NCBI GenBank assembly: GCA_009780345.1
Contig: WRAG01000024.1
Location: 1-35,183 of the forward strand
DNA length: 35,183 bases
Direction: 5' to 3'
Source: Oscillospiraceae bacterium
GTDB lineage: Bacteria; Bacillota; Clostridia; Monoglobales; WRAG01
How positions within the stretch are numbered: the first letter of the stretch is position 1; each line of letters opens with the position of its first letter. The translations under genes were made by a program, and so were the position numbers. Shown in pieces: positions 4,966-27,155 of this stretch. Below the pieces are notes generated by a model. The model ran no database searches. It saw nothing but the letters and a program-made list of their open reading frames with translations, and was not told where the DNA came from.

Positions 4966-5988
4966 TTAGTTTGCGTTATAAACCCACATAGCGGGGCGAA
5001 CGCCGGCATACTGCTCAACCGGCATACCGTTTTGCACCAATATGGTTCCGTCAAAATTTACAACAATTGCGGACCCGCTTCCGTCAGCAGGCGTTCGAAG
5101 CCACCAAGGCCTGATTCTCTGCGCCGAATCCATGCCCATTCTGCCAACGTTATACATATCGCTTATTCGATTCGCATTATACCGCGGATGTTCCAACTGC
5201 TCGCTATCACCAAAGTATTCCACAACTTCCTCAACGCTTAGCAAGAATATCTTATCGGTTGTGTCCGGTGGATTAGAAGCGCCGGCACGCCATGGGTTAG
5301 CAGTATTCACCAAGTTTGTTTGCGCTATCCGCGCGCGGTCAGCGGCAGAAAATTGCAGGTAAAATTCACCATTTAAGTAAGCGCGCAATTGACTTTGGCT
5401 CCAAAACGCGCCAGCGTTCGATTCCGCGTCGTGAAACGCGGCAATATCAAGCACCCTCTCGCTGAGCAAAAGCGTTCTTCCGTCTTGTTCGTCAAGCACA
5501 AGCCAATTCAAACCGCCGAATTCCATTATATCAAACTCCGGCATAAAAATATCCAGCATCGTTCTTATAGTCACAACTCGCGCGTCGCCATCCCAGTAAA
5601 CATCCGCGTTCAGCCCTTCCGAAATCGCGCGAACGGGCACAAGCGTGCGGTCATTCACAATTTGCGGCGCAACATCTAAATTTGCAGGCTCGCCGTTCAC
5701 GAAAATAACAGGCAATCCGATTGTAAGCGTGATGGTTTCGGTGTCACTTTTCCAAGCATAAATAACCTGAGTGTAATAATGCCACTCAACTTCATACCCG
5801 AACGCCTCGAATATCGCGCGCATCGGAACCATCGTCCGATTATTGATGATCTGCGGCGGCACGTCGAATTGAATTTCTTCACCATTCAGAAACACTCTGA
5901 TTGGCGCTTCAGCCGTTACAGTCAACGGAATCGCGAAAAACGAAACCGCCAAAGCCACTACCAAACATACTGATAATACTTTTTTCAT
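4966..5988 (-). CDS. Secreted CAO-N stalk protein with a DUF6273 domain
   Basis: The 340-residue protein has a Sec signal peptide (1 to about 26). Two copper-amine-oxidase N-terminal stalk repeats follow (about 29-143), with the hallmark NNRTMVPMRAIFEAFG and NDRTLVPVRAISE motifs. A C-terminal domain of about 155-336 (NWLVLDEQDGRTLLLSE, then DKIFLLSVEE and GVRPAMW) fits DUF6273, often found on clostridial surface proteins. No enzyme activity can be assigned. The start is ATG 5988, with AAAGGAG upstream; a longer start at 6018 would overlap the preceding gene and lacks a site. It lies 13 bases after the CAO-N protein ending at 6002, so the two are probably co-transcribed. Confidence 0.85.
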   Translation of the reverse strand: MKKVLSVCLVVALAVSFFAIPLTVTAEAPIRVFLNGEEIQFDVPPQIINNRTMVPMRAIFEAFGYEVEWHYYTQVIYAWKSDTETITLTIGLPVIFVNGEPANLDVAPQIVNDRTLVPVRAISEGLNADVYWDGDARVVTIRTMLDIFMPEFDIMEFGGLNWLVLDEQDGRTLLLSERVLDIAAFHDAESNAGAFWSQSQLRAYLNGEFYLQFSAADRARIAQTNLVNTANPWRAGASNPPDTTDKIFLLSVEEVVEYFGDSEQLEHPRYNANRISDMYNVGRMGMDSAQRIRPWWLRTPADGSGSAIVVNFDGTILVQNGMPVEQYAGVRPAMWVYNAN

Positions 5989-6001
5989 ATTTTTCTCTCC
6001 T

Positions 6002-7069
6002 TTAATCATTAGTTTCAATTGTTATCGTCCGCGTCTCCTCATCCCACTCAATTGTTGCATCCATCGCCTCAGAAATCGCGCGAAGCGGCACAAGAGTGCG
6101 GTTATCCACAATCATCGGCGGAACGTCGAGCGTAATTACTTCGTCGTTTCTAATCAATTCATCGCTACCAATCCGCAACGACACCGTTAAATCTCCGCGT
6201 GTCGCTGTAACTGTTAGTGTCTCCTCGTCCCAATCAACATTCGCGCCTAATGCTTCAAAAATCGCACGCATTGGAACCATAGTCCGATTATCAATTATCT
6301 GCGGCAGAACGTCGAATTCGATTACTTGGCCGTTTAGAAGCACGGTGATATCGGATGTCGGAGCAGACGACACAAAGTTTTTCAAATAGTCTATCGCCTC
6401 TTGATAGCCCATTGCAACACAAACGGTTCCGGCGCGTAAAGTGGATTCTATGAAATCAAAGTACCTATAATCATAAATAAGCCGATATGCCGCTCCTTCA
6501 TATATCCGATTAAGCTCTGCCTCGTATGCTTCTTGGGTTACTTGCACGTTATTAATCAACCACATTTCGCCTTCAACCCAGTTGTCGTCAATCATCATGC
6601 CTCCCCATGAATACGCAAGTTCAACTTCTTCCGGCGGTTCATTTAAATTTCTAAAAATGTAAAAACTTGACCACGCAGCAGCCTCGCCGCCATTTCCGCC
6701 GCGCACAATCAGAGTTCCGTCGCGCGTAAGATATACGTCGTAATTAACCGCGCTTACTATATGCTCTAATCCCGGAACATGTATAATCCGATTAACGCCG
6801 CTTCCGTCAAAGCTATATACTGAGAAGTTAACAATCATATTATTTTCAATATGCGTAAAAATAAGTTCAGGTATACCATCGTTATTTATATCAACAACGG
6901 CAACACTATCAACGCCATTTTCAACAAAACCGCCCACCTGAGCATAGGTAACGCCTATATTCTCAAGAATCACGATATAATCATCTTGCCACGACGCGGA
7001 AGCGGTTGCGGTATATAATGCACTTACCACCAACATAAAAGCAACAATTGCACTAAAAAATTTTTTCAT
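6002..7069 (-). CDS. Secreted protein with C-terminal CAO-N stalk repeats
   Basis: The 355-residue protein has a signal peptide (1 to about 25). The unrecognised N-terminal part contains D60-I-N-N-D-G-I-P-E68, a calcium-binding-loop-like motif of FG-GAP/VCBS type. Two CAO-N repeats occupy about 241-355, with NRTMVPMRAIFEALG and NRTLVPLRAISEAM. The stalk is therefore at the C-terminus, opposite to the next gene where it is N-terminal. The start ATG 7069 follows GGGAGGG. Exported and probably surface-exposed; ligand unknown. It is encoded between kdgK (26 bases upstream) and another CAO-N gene in a leftward run. Confidence 0.8.
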   Translation of the reverse strand: MKKFFSAIVAFMLVVSALYTATASASWQDDYIVILENIGVTYAQVGGFVENGVDSVAVVDINNDGIPELIFTHIENNMIVNFSVYSFDGSGVNRIIHVPGLEHIVSAVNYDVYLTRDGTLIVRGGNGGEAAAWSSFYIFRNLNEPPEEVELAYSWGGMMIDDNWVEGEMWLINNVQVTQEAYEAELNRIYEGAAYRLIYDYRYFDFIESTLRAGTVCVAMGYQEAIDYLKNFVSSAPTSDITVLLNGQVIEFDVLPQIIDNRTMVPMRAIFEALGANVDWDEETLTVTATRGDLTVSLRIGSDELIRNDEVITLDVPPMIVDNRTLVPLRAISEAMDATIEWDEETRTITIETND

Positions 7070-8130: not shown

Positions 8131-8877
8131 GGTTTATCATCTATCCTTTCTTTCTTTAATATCAAATTTGTTTTCAGAGCAAGGCTCTGGGGTTTTGCGC
8201 CTGTGGGCGCAGGCATTTTTGCCGCTGCGGCGGCGAGCTTTTGTTCGGGCTTCGAAGCCCGTCTTTGTTTGTCAAAGGTGTTATCGAACACCCTTGACGA
8301 ACCCCGAAAAACTTTAAAAAGTTTTATCAAACTTGCGGCACAAACGCGCTTGGACAGCAAAAACCGCTGTCAAAACGGCGTAAAGTAATTGCCATTCGCC
8401 TGCGGCGAAGGCCGCCGTTACCTGCGCTATCAAAAACGTGCCGCTATCTGGGTTAGCAAACCGCATTCGCGGAAAGACTGGTACGTGCGAACGCCGCGCC
8501 CGGTCGAAACCGACCCACGCAGTGGTCAACTGCAACCGTTCATACATCGGTAAAAACCACCTCGTATTCACGGGCAGTTTTCACAGGGGTGTCGTTACCG
8601 AAAACAAGTTTTCGACGACACTTCCAAAGCGCGCGGGTACCCCGCTTGGCGGAAATGAAAGTGCGGATATATGCCGCTATCGACCATTTGTATGCGAGTA
8701 GAGAAGGGAGGCAAATTGCCGACCGCCTAACTTTCGTCAGCCCTTAAAAAATTTTTGGAGCGAAGCGACAAAAATTTTTAAAATACCCTCACCCACACTC
8801 GCCGCGCCACTCCAATGCAGCAAAATGGGTTTTTAGGGCAAAGCCCCAAAAACCCGCGCCCACAGGGCGCAAAAACC
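8131..8877. repeat. Mosaic palindromic repeat block 1 (no gene)
   Basis: This 747-base gap contains no supported gene. It holds GC-rich inverted repeats shared with the blocks at 11637-12142 and 13839-14541. Module C (8453-8518, AACCGCATTCGCGG core then a CGCGCCCG segment) recurs at 11815-11880 and 14083-14160. Module D (about 8634-8660, GCGGGTACCCCGCTTGGCGG) recurs inverted at about 14207-14233. The right end (8825-8877) resembles 14465-14515. GCGCC palindromes lie at 8195-8211 and 8856-8870. Short reading frames through it are low-complexity and look non-coding. The block abuts the stop codon of the CAO-N gene at 8878. Confidence 0.75.
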
Positions 8878-9435
8878 TTACCGCTCTATCGTCACCGTCC
8901 GTGTCGCCTCGTCCCACTCAACGCTCGCGCCGGTCGCTTCCGAAATCGCGCGAAGCGGCACCAAAGTCCGATTGTCCACAATCTGCGGCGGCACATCCAA
9001 CGGGAAATTGGTTGCCTGATTATTTTCCGTATAATAATCATCATAACCGGTTACAACCGTCATCAAAGGTTCTCCAACACGAAGTTTGATACGGTCTGCG
9101 CCCCTTGACGCATATATAAATTGAAAATAAGGATTCCAATCAACAGCCATTCCGAACGCCTCGAATATCGCGCGCATTGGAACCATAGTTCGATTGTCGA
9201 TTATCATCGGCGGAACGTCGAATTCCAACGCCGCGCCGTCCAAATACACACGAATTTCCGAACCATACGCCGCTATCACAGCGGGAGAAGCATAATATTC
9301 TTCCGAATAATCAGCATAACCGCCCGCGTACTCGTCGGGATATTCCTCAACATCGTCCGGATACGCCATTGTCAGAATCACAAACAACGAAACCGCCAAA
9401 ACTACTGCCAAACATAACGCTAATACCTTCTTCAC
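8878..9435 (-). CDS. Short secreted CAO-N stalk protein
   Basis: The 185-residue protein is a signal peptide (1 to about 24), an acidic/tyrosine-rich linker (DDVEEYPDEY, SEEYYA) and two CAO-N repeats (about 60-185) with NRTMVPMRAIFEAFG and NRTLVPLRAISEATG. It consists of little but the stalk domain, so it may bind wall or another surface protein. The start is GTG 9435, which has AAGGGGG about 7 bases upstream; a longer TTG start at 9462 overlaps the previous gene. It follows the membrane-anchored gene ending at 9449 by 13 bases, with the ribosome site overlapping that gene's stop codon, suggesting an eda - anchor - stalk operon. Confidence 0.8.
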   Translation of the reverse strand: MKKVLALCLAVVLAVSLFVILTMAYPDDVEEYPDEYAGGYADYSEEYYASPAVIAAYGSEIRVYLDGAALEFDVPPMIIDNRTMVPMRAIFEAFGMAVDWNPYFQFIYASRGADRIKLRVGEPLMTVVTGYDDYYTENNQATNFPLDVPPQIVDNRTLVPLRAISEATGASVEWDEATRTVTIER

Positions 9436-9448
9436 TGATTTATCCCCC

Positions 9449-10186
9449 TTATAGATCCGCAATAAATTCTCTTATCGCGGAAATAAACATCCCCAAATCA
9501 TTTTCAATCATAAACAGCGTCTCATCCTCTTGCATTCGTATCTTGCTTACAGTAATAAAATAGTTAATCGACGTATCATCCGGCATAAAATCAAATTCAA
9601 ACCCTCGTTCAAGGGTGAAATAAAGCAATCCCAACTCTTGATTGTCAACAATCGCCAAAAACGAGTTTAAATGTGATATCTCCAAACTACGAAGCTCAAC
9701 TATAGCAATGTTTACATCGGCGTCAAGCTCTTCAATACGCACGGAAAGTATATGTTCGGCAATATTGTCAATGCCAAGCCTAAGCTCGTTACGTCTTTGT
9801 TCCATAAGCGCGAAAAGCGCGTCATAATCCTCTTCAAGCGCGTCAATCGCCGCGTCATCAAGCTGCCCGCCCAAGCTGGCAAGAACAATTCGGTCAACCG
9901 CCATCATCCAAGCAGTTCGAACGACGTTTTCAACTCCGGAAACATTGCCGTCCTCGATAAAAGTCGCCACTACATCTTCCGCTTCAAACAAAATTTCAGG
10001 CATCTCAATCCGCTCGAACATATATCTCGCGTTAAAAATCCATTCGTCAACTTCAAAATCGACAATGTTCGAATCGTTTCCGCCGTTATCACCGTTTCCG
10101 CAAGCAAATATAAGCGTCACCGCAACTGCCGCCGCGATAATTACCGCAACAATTATTAGTATGAGTAATTTTTTGTTTTTTAACAT
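9449..10186 (-). CDS. Membrane-anchored or lipoprotein of unknown function
   Basis: The 245-residue protein starts with a lysine-rich N-terminus and a long hydrophobic segment (about 7-28) ending LIFACGNG. IFAC is a weak lipobox, so it may be a lipoprotein or a single-pass anchored protein. The extracellular part is acidic and helical (for example EELDADVNIAIVELRSLE), with no family I recognise. The start ATG 10186 is one base after the eda stop codon; AGAGG lies about 12 bases upstream, a rather long spacing, so translational coupling to eda is likely. A TTG 24 bases further upstream is in frame but less credible. Confidence 0.65.
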   Translation of the reverse strand: MLKNKKLLILIIVAVIIAAAVAVTLIFACGNGDNGGNDSNIVDFEVDEWIFNARYMFERIEMPEILFEAEDVVATFIEDGNVSGVENVVRTAWMMAVDRIVLASLGGQLDDAAIDALEEDYDALFALMEQRRNELRLGIDNIAEHILSVRIEELDADVNIAIVELRSLEISHLNSFLAIVDNQELGLLYFTLERGFEFDFMPDDTSINYFITVSKIRMQEDETLFMIENDLGMFISAIREFIADL

Positions 10187-11636: not shown

Positions 11637-12142
11637 TCAATCTCGCTCCTTTGGGCTAAGGGCTTTGCCCTAAAACCCTTTATTCGGGTCCGTCCCAAGA
11701 GCCTCTGCTGCCGCAGGGGCGGTAAGGACTCTGCCCTTACCAATCCCGGTCGCCTATGGTCGCAAACGCACAAACCGCGATTTGCGCCAAAGTCGGCGAC
11801 GATAAAAGCATTAGTTAGCGAACCGCATTCGCGGAAAGATTAGCGAGATATAGCACCGCGCCCGTTCGAGAGCGACCCGCGCCTTAAAGCGCGAGATATT
11901 TTTTGGTAGAAGCGAGTTGATACGCTAGCCACCGCGCCATGTGCGCTCGGTTTTTGAGCGTGTTCATGAGCGCGGCGCTTTTGGTCAAACTTTTGGCGCG
12001 CAAAAGTTTGCTGGATTGGCAAGGACTGGTCCTTGCCGCGTCGCGCGCGCCCGCGCAACGTCTGCGGCAGTCGCCGCACATATGCGCTTGTCAGCGCAAA
12101 ATCCCCGCGCGCCCGCGCAAAAGGTCTAAGGCGCAACGCGCC
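11637..12142. repeat. Mosaic palindromic repeat block 2 (no gene)
   Basis: The 506-base gap has no supported gene. It contains module C (11815-11880), module B (about 12011-12066, including GGCAAGGACTGGTCCTTGCC at 12018-12037), a GGGCTAAGGGCTTTGCCC segment near 11648-11666, and TAAGGCGC (12127-12134) / GCGCCTTA (12138-12145), the last arm of which includes the stop codon of the HAD gene. Module B recurs at about 14398-14453. Very GC-rich compared with flanking genes. Confidence 0.72.
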
Positions 12143-13177
12143 TTAATTCAAAAACAACTCCCGTAACCCCATCACATCATCGAAGATATACTCCGCGCCG
12201 TTCTCCTCAAAATATCCGCGCATATCCGCGCCCGAAACTCCGGTAAGTACAGCAGCGAACGCGAACCCGCCCGCTTTCGCCGAAACAAAATCCGCCGCCG
12301 CGTCACCAACAACCAAAACACCGTCAGTAATATTATCGTGCGAGCCGGCCAAAATCTCCTTATCAGTATATCGCCCGCCCGCCGCGGCTTTCAAAAACAC
12401 ATACGGATGCGGCTTCGCAAGCGAAACCTCGCTTTTGCAAGCAATCTCAGCATTCACCGTATCGGTGTAACTTCCAATACTGGCTTTATCAAAATATTCC
12501 TCAATATCCCACATCTCCAGCGGGCGTTTCAGTTCGCCGTCAGGACGCCCGGTACCAATTCCTAACACAATCCCACGCGCTTTCAACGTTTCAAGCAACC
12601 CGCGCAACTTCTCAAGCGGCACACACGGCTTCTCCATCGCATAAAGCCCGGTTTCCACGAACCAATACGCGAACACATCTTGCACTATCCCCCAAAATTC
12701 GCCTTTCTCCCGAACAAAGTAAGAAACATCCCTGCCGGTCACTCGCGCCGCGGCATTATACGAAATATCATAAACTTCCGTCGCGTCGTACGGCAAACTT
12801 TGCGCAAACTCAAGCACTTTTTTGAAGTGTTCCTTATCAAGTTTCTGCAAATCCGGGTCAATATGCTTAGAAATGCAATATGTAACAAGCGCCAAATCCC
12901 AATTCGTATTAACGCCGCGCACTTTCAGCGCATTTATCATATCCCGCCCGCAAAATACCGTATCATGAACGCCGTCAATATCACTCGCGTCAACATTCTC
13001 CCGCCCGAACAGCAATTCGCAAACGGTAAGCGCCGCCGCGTCCCAATACATACTCTCACCGGTGATAACACCGTCCATATCGAAAATAATTTTACTGAAG
13101 CAGGCGGAGCCTGCTGAATGCCCCGCGTCCGAATTTGCATTAACATTTGTGCCGCGAGTATTTGAGTTATTTAACAT
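12143..13177 (-). CDS. HAD-superfamily phosphatase in the his-like cluster
   Basis: The 344-residue protein has all HAD motifs: the nucleophile and acid D33 and D35 in FDMDGVIT, motif II T209 in GIGTGRPDGE, motif III K255 in KPHPYVF and motif IV VVGDAAADF (289-297). An inserted cap domain lies between about 45 and 190. It is expected to hydrolyse a phosphate monoester. The start ATG 13177 overlaps the end of the HisB-like gene by 11 bases and uses AAGGTGA within it, so the two are translationally coupled. That makes histidinol-phosphate phosphatase one candidate role, but the neighbouring His-like proteins are atypical and another sugar-phosphate-like substrate is possible. Confidence 0.82.
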   Translation of the reverse strand: MLNNSNTRGTNVNANSDAGHSAGSACFSKIIFDMDGVITGESMYWDAAALTVCELLFGRENVDASDIDGVHDTVFCGRDMINALKVRGVNTNWDLALVTYCISKHIDPDLQKLDKEHFKKVLEFAQSLPYDATEVYDISYNAAARVTGRDVSYFVREKGEFWGIVQDVFAYWFVETGLYAMEKPCVPLEKLRGLLETLKARGIVLGIGTGRPDGELKRPLEMWDIEEYFDKASIGSYTDTVNAEIACKSEVSLAKPHPYVFLKAAAGGRYTDKEILAGSHDNITDGVLVVGDAAADFVSAKAGGFAFAAVLTGVSGADMRGYFEENGAEYIFDDVMGLRELFLN

Positions 13178-13838
13178 CGTATGTCACCTTTCCCGCAACT
13201 CCGGCGGTCAAACCTGCCCTCGCCGGATCAACGTATAACGCCCGTCCAAGCGCGGTTCCGACCGCGCGAAACGCCGCTTCCCAAATATGATGCCCATTCG
13301 CGCCCTTTTCAACGTCAACATGCAGCGTACAACTCGCCCCCTGCGCGAATCCATCCAAAAACGTCAATAAATCGTCGCTATACATTCCCTCAACCTCGTC
13401 GGCAATATAAATGCCGCCCTCGTTGCAAGTACAACTTTCACATCCGCAATCACACGAACGCCCGCCGCCCGCAGTGCTAAAATCAAACAACGCGCGCCCC
13501 TCAAAAGAAATCGCCGCGCTCACTTTCGCCTCGTCGATTATACCAATCGCATCGCCGTATCCGATCGGAACATTCTCCGCCACAAGGTCGGCAACAGCCT
13601 TGCCGAAAGTCATTCCGACATCTTCGGCGATCACATGCGTCAAGTCAAACTTGTCCAGTTCAACCGAAACTTCAATATTTACAGAACTTCGATACGCGAT
13701 ATGCTCTAACATATGGTTAAGAAACATAATCGGCGTATTGATTTTGCTTCGATAGTCCGCGGCAAGCGCGCCGAGCGTCAATTTAACGACAATCTCCGAT
13801 TCGGTCGTCTTCCGCGTCGCGGTAACAGTGGTTTTCAA
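13167..13838 (-). CDS. HisB-like (imidazoleglycerol-phosphate dehydratase family) protein, divergent
   Basis: The 223-residue protein follows the IGPD fold pattern: FLNHMLEHIA (39-48), an AEDVGMTFGKAV block (71-82), GYGDAIGIIDEAKV (93-106), then GANGHHIWEAAFRAVGTALGRAL (179-201). IGPD is a Mn enzyme whose ligands come from repeated histidine motifs. Here HHIWEA (183-188) is kept, but the usual DHML is NHML (41-44), the histidine after it is R50, and HHTxED is reduced to H68-x-x-x-E72-D73. A cysteine cluster (C129, C131, C133, C136, C138) is inserted mid-protein. The start is TTG 13838, with AAGGAGG eight bases upstream. The fold is clear; canonical dehydratase activity is doubtful. Confidence 0.75.
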   Translation of the reverse strand: MKTTVTATRKTTESEIVVKLTLGALAADYRSKINTPIMFLNHMLEHIAYRSSVNIEVSVELDKFDLTHVIAEDVGMTFGKAVADLVAENVPIGYGDAIGIIDEAKVSAAISFEGRALFDFSTAGGGRSCDCGCESCTCNEGGIYIADEVEGMYSDDLLTFLDGFAQGASCTLHVDVEKGANGHHIWEAAFRAVGTALGRALYVDPARAGLTAGVAGKVTYDVK

Positions 13839-14541
13839 AATAATTTCCTCCTTTTTGCTTTTAAGGCTCCTTAGGCAAAGGCAGATGGCTGTGGATTTTG
13901 CTTTGCAAAATCTTACGCCCCTGCACTTTTTGGCTATGGCTTTCCAAAGACGAAAGCCAAGTCTCAAATGAAGCTGTCACGTAGTGACTGAGGATTGTTA
14001 TTTTTACAATCCCCCGTCGCCAACAGGCGACACCCCCTTTGCCTGGAAGCAGGGCTTTTCTAGTTATCAACTTACTCCCTGTCGCGAACCGCATTCGCGG
14101 AAAAATTACCGAGATATAACACTGCGCTCATTCGAGATCGACCCGCGCCTAAAAGCGCGAGATGTCATTTGGTTGAATGTGCTATGTTTGCACTAACTTT
14201 CGCCCGTGGTTCCGCTAGCGGGGTACCCGCCCGATGGTTTTTGTCGGGAAGGGTCGCAGCGGGGAGGGCGACGGTTTTTGTCAAGTTTTTGACGCACAAA
14301 AACTTGGCAGATGGCTGTGGATTTTGCAAGCAAAATTTTACGCCCCTGCACTTTTCGGCTACCGCTTGCGAAAAACCACGCAAGCGAAGTCTCAAATGCT
14401 GGTTTGGCAAGGACTGGTCCTTGCCGCGCCGCGCGCGCCCGCGCAACGCCTGCCGCCACAGCGGCAAAAAGGGCTTTTAGGGCAAAGCCCTAAAAACTCG
14501 CGCCCTTTGGGCGCAATTTTGCAAAACTTTTTTCAAAAGTT
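13839..14541. repeat. Mosaic palindromic repeat block 3 (no gene)
   Basis: The 703-base gap between the HisB-like and HisD-like genes contains no supported gene, apart from the HisB-like ribosome site at its left edge. Module A occurs twice (13880-13970 and 14307-14398, GGCAGATGGCTGTGGATTTT start), module C at 14083-14160, inverted module D at about 14207-14233, module B at 14398-14453, a TTTAGGGCAAAGCCCTAAA hairpin near 14476-14494, and a GCGCCC-TTT-GGGCGC palindrome (14500-14514). An AAAACTTTT-type hairpin (about 14523-14543) adjoins the HisD-like stop and could terminate it. Confidence 0.75.
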
Positions 14542-15840
14542 TTATTCCCTATCGGCAACAGCTGCCGCATGCGCGTCAAACCCCTCCGCAGTCGCGAATC
14601 GCGCCGCGTGCTCGCGAACCCGCTCGAATCCCTCGCGAGACGCATATCCAATCGACGAACGCTTCAAAAAGTCGAACACCGACACACTCGAATACGTCTT
14701 CGCGAACCCGCCGGTGGGCAATATCGCGTTCGGCCCGAGCAAGAAATTACACAACGTCACAGGCGTATTATCGCCCAACAAAATTTCGCCCGCATTCTTA
14801 ATCTTCGGCAAAAGATCGAACGGATTTTCGCACATGACTTCCATATGCTCGGGCGCGTAAAGGTTAACAAAATCAATACTTTCACCCAAACTATCGGTCA
14901 AAATCACGCCGCCGTATGTCGAAAAGTTTGTCGCGATAAAACCTTGTCGTTTCGGCGATAACTTCTTCATTTGTTCTTGCATAATCGGCAAAACCTTGTC
15001 CACCAATTCCCTGGAATGAGTCACAAGCAACGACGCCGAATCCCCGCCATGCTCCGCCTCAATCATCCAATCAAGCGCGACATTATGCGGATTCGCCCTC
15101 TCGTCGGCAAGTATAATCGCCTCACTCGGCCCCGCGGGAAGCCCGACATCGATATAATTCGCCAAAACCCGCTTCGCCGCGGTGGCGTAAGCATTTCCGG
15201 GTCCAATAATTTTATGACATTTCGGTATGGTTTCGGTTCCAAACGCCGCGGACGCGACGGCCTGAATCCCGCCAACCTTATATATTTCAGTAATTCCGAT
15301 AATTTTCGCCGCCGCCAAAAGCGTATCGTCAACATTCCCCTCTTCATTCGGCGGAGTAACAACAACAATCTTCGACACGCCGGCGATAACCGCGGGAATT
15401 CCAAGCATTAAAAGCACCGACGGAAAACTCCCTTTCCCGCGCGGCACATAAAGGCAAACATCCACAATCGGCGTAGTTTTCTCGCCCACCATAAGCCCTT
15501 TATCAACCTCGGTAAACCACATTTCCTCCGGTAACTGCTTCTCGTGGAAATTCCTGATATTCCCCGCCGCGTATTCGATGGTTTCCCGAATTTTCGGATC
15601 AAGCCGACGATATCCGTCCTCAATTTCCGCCTCGGTAACCTTGATTTTATCCTGCGAAAGCTTAACTTTATCGAATTTTTCGGTATATTCCAAAACTGCC
15701 TTATCTCCGCGCGCACGAATATCGTTCGAAACCTCGGTTGCAAGTTTCATATGCTCCGAAATATCAATTTCCGCGCGTTTGAGGACAAAATTTTTGACCT
15801 CCGCGCTAACCTCTGACCACTTATGTATATTGACGTTCAT
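14542..15840 (-). CDS. Histidinol dehydrogenase family protein (HisD-like)
   Basis: The 432-residue protein is HisD-like along its length: GGIQAVASAAFGTE (190-203), IIGPGNAY (211-218), LPAGPSE (234-240), the catalytic pair E331-H332 in APEHMEV, and H424 near the C-terminus. HisD oxidises histidinol to histidine with two NAD and one Zn. Two usual residues differ: the Zn-ligand Gln of QAEH is E261 in IEAEHGG, and the conserved NHVLPT is NAILPT (371-376). It may therefore act on another alcohol substrate. The start is ATG 15840 with GGAGGGGG; a longer TTG start overlaps that site. A good promoter precedes it. Confidence 0.85.
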   Translation of the reverse strand: MNVNIHKWSEVSAEVKNFVLKRAEIDISEHMKLATEVSNDIRARGDKAVLEYTEKFDKVKLSQDKIKVTEAEIEDGYRRLDPKIRETIEYAAGNIRNFHEKQLPEEMWFTEVDKGLMVGEKTTPIVDVCLYVPRGKGSFPSVLLMLGIPAVIAGVSKIVVVTPPNEEGNVDDTLLAAAKIIGITEIYKVGGIQAVASAAFGTETIPKCHKIIGPGNAYATAAKRVLANYIDVGLPAGPSEAIILADERANPHNVALDWMIEAEHGGDSASLLVTHSRELVDKVLPIMQEQMKKLSPKRQGFIATNFSTYGGVILTDSLGESIDFVNLYAPEHMEVMCENPFDLLPKIKNAGEILLGDNTPVTLCNFLLGPNAILPTGGFAKTYSSVSVFDFLKRSSIGYASREGFERVREHAARFATAEGFDAHAAAVADRE

Positions 15841-15873
15841 AGCTACCCCCTCCAATCAAGCTCACATGAAAAC

Positions 15874-16473: not shown

Positions 16474-16512
16474 TGTAGATATAGGATTTCAATTCTATAT
16501 CTACATTTTTTT
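16474..16512. terminator. Strong terminator after tRNA-Leu
   Basis: An 11-bp stem TGTAGATATAG (16474-16484) / CTATATCTACA (16495-16505) is followed by seven T residues. It ends the tRNA transcript. The T-run reaches the stop codon of the leftward recombinase at 16511, so it marks the boundary between the host tRNA and the accessory region. Confidence 0.9.
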
Positions 16513-18217
16513 ATGCTAATTTTCTTGTGGACGAATATGTAACATTGACACCTTTTCGTGTGTTGACAGTTACATCTACATTCGGGATTTTTGACAAATC
16601 GGGAATTTCAATATCACCGACACAAGCGTAATATATAGTGATTATTTGTATATTCTCGCCGTCAACTTTTTCGGTATGGTGGATTTCGATTTTGTCAATA
16701 AGTTCATTCAACATCTGCGGCGTGAGTTTCCTTGCGCGTGTGTACTTGCGGACTGTCGAGATAAACATTTCACTTGTAACGGCTTTGTCCTCTGCTTTGT
16801 TGAGTTCGGCGCGGAGCGTTTTCATCTTTTCGGCAATGTCCGTCTGCTCGTCTGTGTATGCCTTTGACATTCGGGCGAAACGGCTATCGTCAATTTTTCC
16901 GCTTGCGTTGTCCTCATACATACGATTGAAAAGGCTGTCGAGTTCCTTATCCCTTGCAAGTAGCGCGTTTAACTCCTTTTGCTTGCCCTGCCTGTCGTTT
17001 TCAACTGTGCTTTTCGAGTGTCCCATAACCGCCTTTGCAAACTCTTTTTCATATTGTGTCGCAAACTTCGTCAAACGGCGTACTTCTTGCAAGATAACTT
17101 GTTCGAGGAAGTCAACACGGACATAGTGGGTTTGGTCGCAAGTTTTATGTCGCTTGTTGAAATTGGCGCAATTGAAATATTTTATGTCGTGGTTGCCTTG
17201 ATTAAAATGAAAATTCAACCGCCCTTTACAATCAGCGCATACAAGCAAGCCGGAAAACATATTGACTTCGCCGTCCGTTGTCTTACGCTTGCGTGTTTTG
17301 CTCCGCTTTTTCTGCACTCGCTCCCAGTCCTCGCGGTTTATGATTGGCTCGTGAACGTCCTCAAATACCGCCATATTTTCCTCGCTGTTTTTCAACCGCT
17401 TTTTGCGCCTGTAATCTTTTGAATATGTTTTGAAGTTGATTAAATCGCCGCAATATTCCTGTAATGTCAAGATATGTACTACGGTTGAAGCAGTCCAGTT
17501 GTAGGGCTTGTCGCTTAATCCGTTGCGATTGGGGCGTTTAATCCCCTTACTGTGCCAGTAGTGCATAGGTGTGAGAATTTTGTCCTTTTCCAACCCTGCG
17601 GCTATCTGTTCCGTTCCCTTGCCCAAGAACTCGAAATAAATTCGGCGGACAATTTCGGCGGCTTGTTCGTCAATTATCCATTGTTTCGGGTTGTCGGGGT
17701 TTTTGATGTAACCATACGGAGCAAACCCTAACGGCTCGCCAGCGTTGCCCTTAATTTGATTGCTGATACGCTTTTTCTTTGATATGTCGCGGCTGTACCA
17801 TTCGTTAAATAGGTTGCGAATAGGTGTCAAATCATTCTCGCCCTCGGCGGTATCAACGTTGTCAGCAACAGCCACAAACCGCACATCATAATCAACGAAA
17901 AAGTAATCCGTCAGCCGTCCAACCTATAAATGGTTACGACCTAACCTCGACAAATCCTTTACAAATACGGCGTTGATATAACCTTTTTCAATTTCAGCAA
18001 GCATTTGTTGCAGTCCGTTTCGCTCCATTGTTACGCCCGATACGCCGTCATCTACAAAGGTTTTGAGATTTTTATATCCCTTTTCCCTCGCAACTTTCGT
18101 GAGTAACTTTTTTTGATTGGAAATACTGTAACTTTCGCCGTCCAAATTATCGTCCCGCGAGAGCCGGACATATAGCGCGGCGGTGTGATTGATATTTATT
18201 TTGCTTGATTGTTTCAT
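16511..18217 (-). pseudogene. Large serine recombinase (TnpX-like) with an in-frame amber codon
   Basis: Read through the amber codon this is a 568-codon serine recombinase. The N-terminal resolvase domain has the nucleophile S20 in YVRLSRDD, a DDGVSG segment and DLSRLGRNHL. A recombinase domain follows, with PLGFAPYGY. A zinc ribbon has C327, C330, C350 and C360, and a long coiled coil comes after it. Codon 98 is TAG (17926-17924), exactly between NHL and VGRL, with no frame change, so one substitution explains it. TAG ends pflB and pcrA in this window, so the code is not altered. The start ATG 18217 follows AAAGGAG and lies inside a hairpin loop. Likely function: integration and excision of the element. 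Confidence 0.85.
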
Positions 18218-18248
18218 AATATACGCTCCTTTCGGCACAATCAAGCAA
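18201..18248 (-). promoter_or_regulatory. Perfect 12-bp hairpin enclosing the recombinase start
   Basis: TTGCTTGATTGT (18201-18212) and ACAATCAAGCAA (18237-18248) are exact reverse complements. The 24-base loop contains the recombinase ribosome site and ATG (18217-18215), while codons 2-6 form one arm. It could limit translation initiation or be a protein-binding palindrome. Confidence 0.6.
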
Positions 18249-18264
18249 TATTTACGATAAATAA

Positions 18265-18293
18265 ATTGTATCATACTTGACTGTATTTTTCAA
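18265..18293 (-). promoter_or_regulatory. Promoter of the recombinase gene
   Basis: On the minus strand TTGAAA (18293-18288) and TACAAT (18270-18265) are 17 bases apart, about 48 bases before the recombinase ATG. The transcript would begin near the 5' arm of the hairpin at 18201-18248. Confidence 0.6.
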
Positions 18294-21703: not shown

Positions 21704-23257
21704 TTAATTCGTGATAATAACCGTCTGCATTGCTCCGTCCCATTGAACATCTGCACCGAAACTTTCTGCAATCGCGCGAGCAGGGACGAGCGTTCTATCA
21801 TTCACAATTTGAGCGGGAACATCGAGCGGTATGTTTTCGCCGTTTACTGTCATTACTGCATTACCTATCTGCAATCTTACAACAGTATCGCCCCTTGTTG
21901 CCGTAACCATTTGAAACACGCCGTCCCACTCTACATCTGCCCCCAACGCTTCAAATATCGCACGGAGCGGAACGAGAGTTCGTCCGTCTTGCATTATGGG
22001 CGGTTGGTCGAATTGAATTGTTGTACCATTCAAAGTAACGCTGATATTTTGCGTTGGCGCAGGCGTTGTTGGTTGTGTGCCTGTTGCTCCCATTACCCGC
22101 AAGCTAACATTCCCATCAAGTGAAACCACCGCAACACCCTCGGAAAAACGAATAGAATTATATATAACTGGTATAACTTCGTTTCCATATCTGTCTATAA
22201 GTCCAAATCTGCGATTGTTTATGTCTCCTATGCCGACCACCGCAAATCCTTCCGAAAAATGATTATCTTGTATTAAATCATACCTTGGTGGCACAACCTC
22301 ATTACCGAGCGTATCTATAAGCCCCCATTTTCCATCTCGTTCAACTCGTGCAAAACCATTGGAAAATTCCCTTACACTATCATATACAACGGGTATAACT
22401 TCATTGCCGAGTCTGTCTATAAATCCCTGTCTGCCATCTCGCATAACTCCTGCCCTACCATAGGAAAAAAGCCCTACGAAATTATAATTATGATTAAGTT
22501 GTGCAACCACATTGCCGGACGTGTTTATTAGGCTCCATCTGACAAAATCGTGCCTAACTGCCGCCAGACCTTCAGAAAAAGGATTGGCTAAATTATATAT
22601 AAGCGGTATAACTTCGTTACCCGATGTGTCTATAAACCCCCACATACCACCAACTCGACTGACTTCTGCCAAGCCTTCGGAAAAACGCCCTGCGAAATTA
22701 TAATTATTAAGCTGTATAACTTCATTACCGGATTTATCTATAAAACTACTTCTACCATTAAGCAAAACCTGCGCCCTACCATTTGAAAAAACAGCTACGC
22801 TATCATATATAAATGGTATAACCACATTGCCCGATGTGTTTATAAATCCCCATCTGTCGTTAAGCCTAACCGCCGCCAAACCTTCTATAAACCTTCCTGC
22901 GTGAATATCGTTAATTGTAGCTACATCATATTTGAGCGGTACAACTTCGTTGCCTAATCTATCTATAAAGCCAAGTCTGCCATTAAGCGTAACCATAGCC
23001 AATCCATCGGAAAATCCCCATACTCTATCATACATTGGCGGCACGACTTCATTGCCGAGCGTATCAACAAAGCCCCATCTGCCATCTTGACTAACCGCCA
23101 ACAAGCCCTCGGAAAATCCACCGGAAAAACCGCCTGCAATATGCCCTGCATTGTCATATGGCAAAGCAATTTCGGTAAATCCGACAGCCAATGCATACGG
23201 AGCAAGTGCGAGAACAAGAATTACTGCTACTACAAGGGAAATAATGCGTTTTTTCAT
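21704..23257 (-). CDS. Secreted WG-repeat protein with CAO-N stalk
   Basis: The 517-residue protein has a signal peptide (1 to about 24). About nine WG (KWG-type) beta repeats follow (about 40-385), each of the form SEGLAAVxxxGRWGFIDxxGNEVIP. A short TQPTTPAPTQ linker leads to two CAO-N repeats (about 400-517), with GRTLVPLRAIFEALG and NDRTLVPARAIAESFG. WG repeats probably form a beta-solenoid or propeller-like binding surface; the ligand is unknown. The start ATG 23257 follows AAAGAGG. It shares its stalk with the chromosomal proteins at 4966, 6002 and 8878 but lies in the AT-rich region next to the element core, so it is either cargo or the first host gene beyond it. Confidence 0.87.
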   Translation of the reverse strand: MKKRIISLVVAVILVLALAPYALAVGFTEIALPYDNAGHIAGGFSGGFSEGLLAVSQDGRWGFVDTLGNEVVPPMYDRVWGFSDGLAMVTLNGRLGFIDRLGNEVVPLKYDVATINDIHAGRFIEGLAAVRLNDRWGFINTSGNVVIPFIYDSVAVFSNGRAQVLLNGRSSFIDKSGNEVIQLNNYNFAGRFSEGLAEVSRVGGMWGFIDTSGNEVIPLIYNLANPFSEGLAAVRHDFVRWSLINTSGNVVAQLNHNYNFVGLFSYGRAGVMRDGRQGFIDRLGNEVIPVVYDSVREFSNGFARVERDGKWGLIDTLGNEVVPPRYDLIQDNHFSEGFAVVGIGDINNRRFGLIDRYGNEVIPVIYNSIRFSEGVAVVSLDGNVSLRVMGATGTQPTTPAPTQNISVTLNGTTIQFDQPPIMQDGRTLVPLRAIFEALGADVEWDGVFQMVTATRGDTVVRLQIGNAVMTVNGENIPLDVPAQIVNDRTLVPARAIAESFGADVQWDGAMQTVIITN

Positions 23258-26441: not shown

Positions 26442-26690
26442 ACAATCACCTCGCCTAATATAATATCACCACAACATCTAGAAGTCAAACCGCTTTTGCT
26501 ACCATATTTTGGGGTTAACTCTAATCTCGCCGCTCACACAATGATAAACAATGTATTTTTTATATGTTTTCACGCTATGCTCTCATATACTCCCGCATGC
26601 TCCCTAATCCTCAGGTGTGGCAATTCGACATTTGCTTTTTCCACGCACATCTTAGGCATTATTTACATAATATATTTTGGAGGTGAAAAA

Positions 26691-27155
26691 ATGACGTTAT
26701 TTTACGACGCAATTGCTTATATCAGTGGGAGTTCCATCGCGCCGCGCCTTAGGGGAACCGTGAAATTCAAGAGCCAAGACGGCGGAACATGGGTGTACGC
26801 GGACATATCAGGTTTGCCGCCGTTTAGTCCGGCGGCAGACGGTAAACCGCAGATCTCTCCCTTCGGATTTCATATACATGACGGGAATCAATGCGGCGAT
26901 AATACAGGTGACAATCCGTTCCAAAGCGCCGGAGGGCACTGGAACCCGGACGGACAGTTGCACGGTAATCACGCAGGCGATTTTCCGGTGCTAATCGCAA
27001 GCCATGGTTTGGCGAAACTTGCGTTTTTCACCGACAGATTTACACCGGAAGACATTATCGGACACACCGTAATCATACACCAATCTCCCGACGATTACAG
27101 AACGCAACCATCCGGCGACAGCGGCTTACGCATCGGCTGCGGAGTGATTATGTGA
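26691..27155 (+). CDS. sodC: Cu/Zn superoxide dismutase, no signal peptide
   Basis: The enzyme dismutates superoxide to oxygen and peroxide. The 154-residue protein keeps the complete metal site: copper ligands H61, H63, H83 and H130, zinc ligands H83, H91, H94 and D97, the disulfide cysteines C68 and C150, and the active-site arginine R147. The start ATG 26691 has a perfect GGAGGTG upstream. No signal peptide is visible, unlike most bacterial SodC, so it is predicted to be cytoplasmic or packaged without Sec export. It is the only plus-strand gene among leftward sporulation-related genes and is followed by two hairpins. Confidence 0.9.
   Translation: MTLFYDAIAYISGSSIAPRLRGTVKFKSQDGGTWVYADISGLPPFSPAADGKPQISPFGFHIHDGNQCGDNTGDNPFQSAGGHWNPDGQLHGNHAGDFPVLIASHGLAKLAFFTDRFTPEDIIGHTVIIHQSPDDYRTQPSGDSGLRIGCGVIM

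Follow-up and report, generated by a model that had tools for sequence, protein, structure and literature searches.

A divergent HisB-fold protein in a conserved HisD*-HisB*-HAD module that appears to stand in for HisB, HisC and HisD in part of the Clostridia

In the textbook account, histidine is made by one route only, with a single HisB chemistry and with amination performed by HisC; two enzymes of that route, IGP dehydratase (IGPD, HisB) and HisD, serve as targets of drugs and herbicides. The window, that is, the whole stretch of 35,183 nucleotides analysed here, holds homologues of both enzymes together with a third gene:

12143..13177, minus strand: HAD-superfamily phosphatase (PF13419/PF00702), the candidate phosphatase of the module, with an 11 nt overlap with the end of hisB*
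13167..13838, minus strand: hisB*, divergent IGP-dehydratase-fold protein of 223 aa, with a TTG start and the RBS AAGGAGG
14542..15855, minus strand: hisD*, histidinol-dehydrogenase homologue with the Zn-ligand changes Q259E and D360N, and with E356V and H367A

In A. thaliana IGPD2, one manganese ion (Mn1) is bound by H47, H74, H169 and E173 and the other (Mn2) by H73, E77, H145 and H170, while the phosphate is bound by Q51, H55, R99, K177 and the C-loop, and E21, D108 and E173 participate in catalysis (PMC4509728). HisD has a relative, the sulfopropanediol 3-dehydrogenase HpsN, which performs a four-electron oxidation of a 2-hydroxy rather than a 2-amino primary alcohol and is told apart by the motif GRY[AS]H in place of the GSAPL of HisD (PMC11382572). 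Compared with IGP dehydratase HisB (A. thaliana IGPD2, P. furiosus IGPD and the C-terminal domain of E. coli HisB), HisB* is alike in fold, in the equivalents of E21, D108 and E173, in six of the eight metal ligands and in its operon contact with hisD, but it differs at two metal ligands and throughout the phosphate site.

Fold, clade and active site of HisB*

The match of HisB* to PF00475, the Pfam IGPD family, scores 100.8 bits against a gathering score of 27, whereas all NCBIfam HisB equivalog cut-offs are missed (108.8 versus 189 at best). An AlphaFold2 model (pLDDT 88.5) has 29 PDB matches at E <= 0.001, and all 29 are IGPDs (TMt <=0.89). The first-pass annotation, which had read HisB* as a HisB-family protein of changed chemistry or function, advised a phylogeny with bona fide HisB and a search for a second, canonical hisB. 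The tree groups HisB* with the divergent proteins and E. coli with the canonical enzymes, on opposite sides of a branch that has full support and a length of about 5.4 changes per site, and the search returned HisB* as the sole PF00475 match of the source genome.

The same division is apparent in PF00475 scores across 100 related genomes, which are bimodal (194-232 bits for canonical and 97-137 for divergent proteins), and the HisB* type occurs beyond the source genome in 3 genomes of an even sample of 299 of the phylum. The 116 divergent loci aligned here were drawn from the 100 related genomes and from the best 80 of 133 relatives in a scan of named genomes; some contigs are common to both sources, and the number of species is smaller than that of loci. 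Among those best 80 of 133, the carriers are all labelled Clostridia or other Bacillota. Cultured carriers include Ructibacterium gallinarum and Petroclostridium sp. X23. A pseudogene reading of hisB* was rejected on the clade-wide conservation of its active-site residues, which are set out below by the following features (positions refer to A. thaliana IGPD2, whose reference sequence, with eight loop residues filled in, has a length that fits the numbering in PMC4509728):

13188..13220, minus strand: C-terminal loop R207..TAGVAGK, which replaces the canonical phosphate-binding STKG loop
13275..13295, minus strand: GHHIWEA, residues 182-188 (H183, H184, E187), ligands H169, H170 and E173 kept, invariant in 116/116 divergent loci
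13362..13364, minus strand: T159 (position 145), Mn2 ligand lost, His or Glu in canonical enzymes
13413..13469, minus strand: species-specific insertion with C129-x-C131-x-C133-x2-C136-x-C138 (cysteines 13425-13454)
13620..13637, minus strand: H68-V-I-A-E72-D73, Mn2 ligands H73 and E77 kept, Mn1 ligand H74 lost (V69)
13689..13718, minus strand: NHMLEHIAYR, residues 41-50, Mn1 ligand H42 kept, with new invariant H46 (position 51) and R50 (position 55)

Six of the eight IGPD manganese ligands are thus kept in HisB* and two are lost (H74, now V69, and position 145, now T159). Both losses are found in 116/116 divergent loci and in 0/31 canonical sequences, a clade-wide pattern which is far beyond chance: the position of H74 is V, L or I in every divergent protein versus H in every canonical one, and position 145 is T, V or A in the former versus E (30/31) or H (1/31) in the latter. 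All 116 loci keep E21, H47, H73, E77, D108, H169, H170 and E173, and the HisB* residues H42, H46 and R50 are likewise invariant. The first-pass annotation had correctly described an intact HHIWEA (H183, H184, E187) and the reduction of HHTxED to HxxxED. Its other two changes, DHML to NHML and R50 for the following histidine, are present in the sequence (N41-H42 and R50) but were rejected as metal-ligand losses on the IGPD2 ligand map, in which the aspartate is not a ligand and H55 binds phosphate (PMC4509728), while the second true ligand loss, at position 145, had been missed.

The phosphate site is altered as well, with Q51 replaced by H46, H55 by R50, R99 by G93, K177 by R191 and the Ser and Lys of the C-loop by Gly and Ala. 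Canonical HisB mostly has L at position 51 (Q in E. coli) and H at position 55. The residues corresponding to H55, R99, K177 and the loop Ser and Lys read R, G, R, G and A (one C) in 36/36 divergent proteins, with S199 replaced by G and K201 by A or C, whereas 31/31 canonical proteins have the canonical residues. At the changed positions, 36/36 divergent differ from 31/31 canonical sequences. HisB* is accordingly placed within the IGPD fold family but outside canonical IGP dehydratase, of which two metal ligands and the phosphate-binding residues were looked for and not found. H46 lies four residues past H42 on the same helix (HxxxH) and could substitute for H74 at Mn1 or contact an acid group of the substrate. 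The phosphate pocket of HisB* is rebuilt around H46, R50 and R191, which keep it basic, and because of this a phosphate-bearing substrate may still be accepted.

The hisD* gene and the HAD phosphatase

HisD* scores 488.9 bits against PF00815, of which it is the only match in the source genome, and 461.4 against TIGR00069 (cut-off 243.8), and its gene lies directly upstream of hisB* in 111 loci. With residue roles taken from PMC5585171, HisD* shares with HisD the catalytic E326 and H327 (111/111), the Zn ligands H262 and H419 and the imidazole-binding E414, but it differs in the Zn ligands Q259E and D360N and on the substrate side in E356V/I and H367A, substitutions that are found in 111/111 divergent loci and 0/4 canonical ones. 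The Zn-ligand set is consequently Glu, His, Asn, His in 111/111 loci compared with Gln, His, Asp, His in canonical HisD, and GKGSF occupies the site of the GSAPL motif in 111/111. Near the Zn, at the place of the substrate's amino group, HisD* has thus lost residues with carboxylate side chains, with the imidazole and hydride-transfer residues kept. HpsN keeps the Gln and Asp Zn ligands and has the GRY[AS]H motif, whereas HisD* has neither; an assignment of HisD* as HpsN was discarded, since this motif is absent and HpsN chains score below HisD chains.

The HAD gene lies directly downstream of hisB* in at least 100 loci; 12 loci were counted without an adjacent HAD, of which a few have it one gene further on, and two genomes (G006 and G020) carry the HAD without a HisB. 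Its catalytic residues D33, D35, T209, K255, D292 and D296 are invariant. With the HAD-type histidinol-phosphate phosphatase it shares the catalytic motifs and linkage to hisB and hisD, but its HAD family is a different one, marked by a large cap (about 350 aa), and it is below the histidinol-phosphatase cut-offs (TIGR01656, 20.7 versus 84). One genome, G013, has two complete hisD*-hisB*-HAD sets on separate contigs (L036 and L037). In 56/81 loci the gene after the HAD encodes a hydro-lyase beta subunit of the TtdB/FumA C-terminal type (for example L111:5798-6517 and L107:10437-11039), with no alpha subunit seen adjoining.

Histidine pathway context and the order of the last steps

The source genome (G000, 96% complete) has one HisB and one HisD in addition to HisG, HisI, HisE and HisA/F, and the loci that hold its remaining his genes are without hisB, hisC and hisD. 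The first-pass annotation had considered that being the only hisB of a histidine prototroph would speak against a changed function. At the genomic level this is the situation observed (one PF00475 match, upstream pathway present), and since HisB* is the sole hisB beside an upstream pathway, its role would lie within histidine biosynthesis rather than outside it. As to a regulatory link between the two his loci, no T-box was found, and the HisR-like sites at these loci score no better than background.

The module is exclusive to one type of genome. Among the 100 relatives, the HAD occurs in 35/35 HisB* genomes and 1/47 canonical genomes (p = 2e-22), and a HisC-like protein (>=240 bits) in 0/35 and 46/47, respectively (p = 2e-22), or 0/35 and 43/47 when HisC over the cut-off is counted; these statistics ignore kinship, the HAD and HisC p values span 5e-19 to 2e-22, and aminotransferases were judged through TIGR01141 matches only. 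HisI is present in 32/35 HisB* genomes compared with 4/18 genomes without any HisB (p = 6e-7, kinship ignored). The split of HisB types is not one deep branching only, because HisB* and canonical types both occur within families f5 and f16. The exceptions with respect to HisC are G155 and G355, two genomes of one genus that pair HisB* with a 358-bit HisC-like protein. A change in chemistry or function, as first proposed, is thus supported in that HisD is altered in step with HisB* and HisC is missing almost wherever the HisB* type occurs.

HisD*-HisB*-HAD therefore appears to stand in for HisB, HisC and HisD in part of the Clostridia. The stronger form of this reading, to which roughly even chances are given, is that the conserved module takes the place of HisB, HisC and HisD as well as of the customary histidinol phosphatase, with HisB* as its dehydratase and amination as the last step. 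That order would be the likeliest in view of the joint change of three features, namely the HisB* phosphate pocket, the HisD* Zn site and whether HisC is present, and the simplest common cause of the missing HisC and of the altered HisD* and HisB* sites would be intermediates that have no amino group. The two-metal (Mn) site of HisB*, in which each metal would have lost one protein ligand and retained two His and one Glu (H42/H183/E187 and H68/H184/E72), probably still expels water from an imidazole-bearing vicinal diol, which would be IGP or the dephosphorylated or oxidised product made from it by the HAD and HisD*. HisD* would take a primary alcohol through a four-electron oxidation; by analogy, HpsN shows that the HisD fold is able to accept a 2-hydroxy primary alcohol (PMC11382572). 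Two orders are candidates, namely dehydration, dephosphorylation and oxidation, or dephosphorylation, oxidation to imidazole glycerate and dehydration. The specific route after IGP, via the HAD, HisB* and HisD* to imidazolepyruvate and from there by a general aminotransferase to L-histidine, bypassing HisC as well as histidinol phosphate and histidinol, is proposed tentatively; in one version it would run from imidazole glycerol through imidazole glycerate to imidazolepyruvate. Evidence pulling the other way is that HisD*, by score, resembles HisD more than HpsN and has the imidazole contacts intact, that the HisB* pocket is still basic, and that G155 and G355 have a HisC-like protein beside HisB*.

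The main rival is conventional chemistry with drift: HisB* would be an ordinary IGP dehydratase whose site has been remodelled, HisD* would act on histidinol, the HAD would serve as the phosphatase for histidinol phosphate, an unrelated aminotransferase would take the place of HisC, and the parts would co-occur because the module spread as a unit. The fold and the catalytic acid-base residues are unchanged, HisD* exceeds the hisD cut-off of TIGR00069 and is most similar to structures of true HisD, class I aminotransferases occur, and the HAD fits the histidinol-phosphatase slot because no PHP-type enzyme of that function reaches the cut-off in the source genome. This explanation nevertheless leaves unaccounted for the coordinated losses at the metal, phosphate and Zn sites in 116/116 and 111/111 loci as well as the distribution of HisC (0/35 versus 46/47), and it is regarded as doubtful.

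An assignment of the module to another pathway (of a different imidazole, or a diol oxidation of HisD type like that of HpsN), with histidine not made through it, is unlikely. It would be in keeping with the scores of HisB* below every NCBIfam HisB cut-off, with the missing GSAPL motif of HisD* and with the TtdB/fumarase-type beta subunit that is often next. However, HisG, HisE, HisI, HisA and HisF would then be dead ends in at least 30 genomes without another HisB, no second HisD was found in genomes where one was looked for, HisB* is statistically tied to HisI across genomes, and the HpsN-specific motif is absent from HisD*.

The first-pass annotation had further suggested that the five cysteines inside ten residues (129-138), which are indeed present in HisB* and absent from canonical HisB, bind an extra metal or cluster and alter its chemistry, but this is very improbable and was rejected as the cause of an altered function, given that the insertion occurs in 1/116 divergent loci (the window protein, from a single genome assembly), that the other 115 have the same active-site changes without it, and that it falls in a loop where the confidence of the AlphaFold2 model drops to about 50-65. 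On the sequences compared, the five-cysteine loop is an addition peculiar to this species.

Under the amination-last route, if true, the textbook order of amination and oxidation would be inverted. A clade that keeps HisG to HisF with a co-adapted block for HisB, HisC, HisD and the phosphatase would constitute a new pathway variant. It would also account for gut Clostridia that are expected to be scored by automated tools as being without hisC and a good hisB. HisB* and HisD* offer natural two-metal and Zn sites with altered ligands for probing substrate choice in IGPD and HisD. A literature search, whose coverage left out most subscription papers, returned no account of the HisB* type, the HisD ligand changes or the module.

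Surroundings of the locus

The contact between hisD* and hisB* in the window is interrupted by a gap, for which no comparable case was seen in the other loci:

13839..14541, no strand: hisD*-hisB* gap of 703 bp, filled by the dispersed repeats D1-D4, D9 and D10

Dispersed repeats (blocks of 20 to 94 nt, 85-100% alike) occupy intergenic gaps at 8456-8475, 11818-11911, 12009-12068, 13905-13951, 14084-14177, 14330-14376 and 14397-14456. Just upstream of hisD*, the segment 16379-20608 is probably a small integrated element, with a tRNA-Leu(aag), a serine recombinase split into two ORFs (Resolvase, 17924-18274; Recombinase/Zn ribbon/DUF4368, 16511-17884), a Rep ORF2/G2P-like protein and a HerA/FtsK-like ATPase. 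Domains of the copper-amine-oxidase N-terminal type occur in several proteins that look secreted, encoded at 4966-7069, 8878-9462 and 21704-23257, two of them confirmed by Pfam and the others recognised from their translation, and this clostridial genome also encodes a Cu/Zn superoxide dismutase (PF00080) at 26496-27155.
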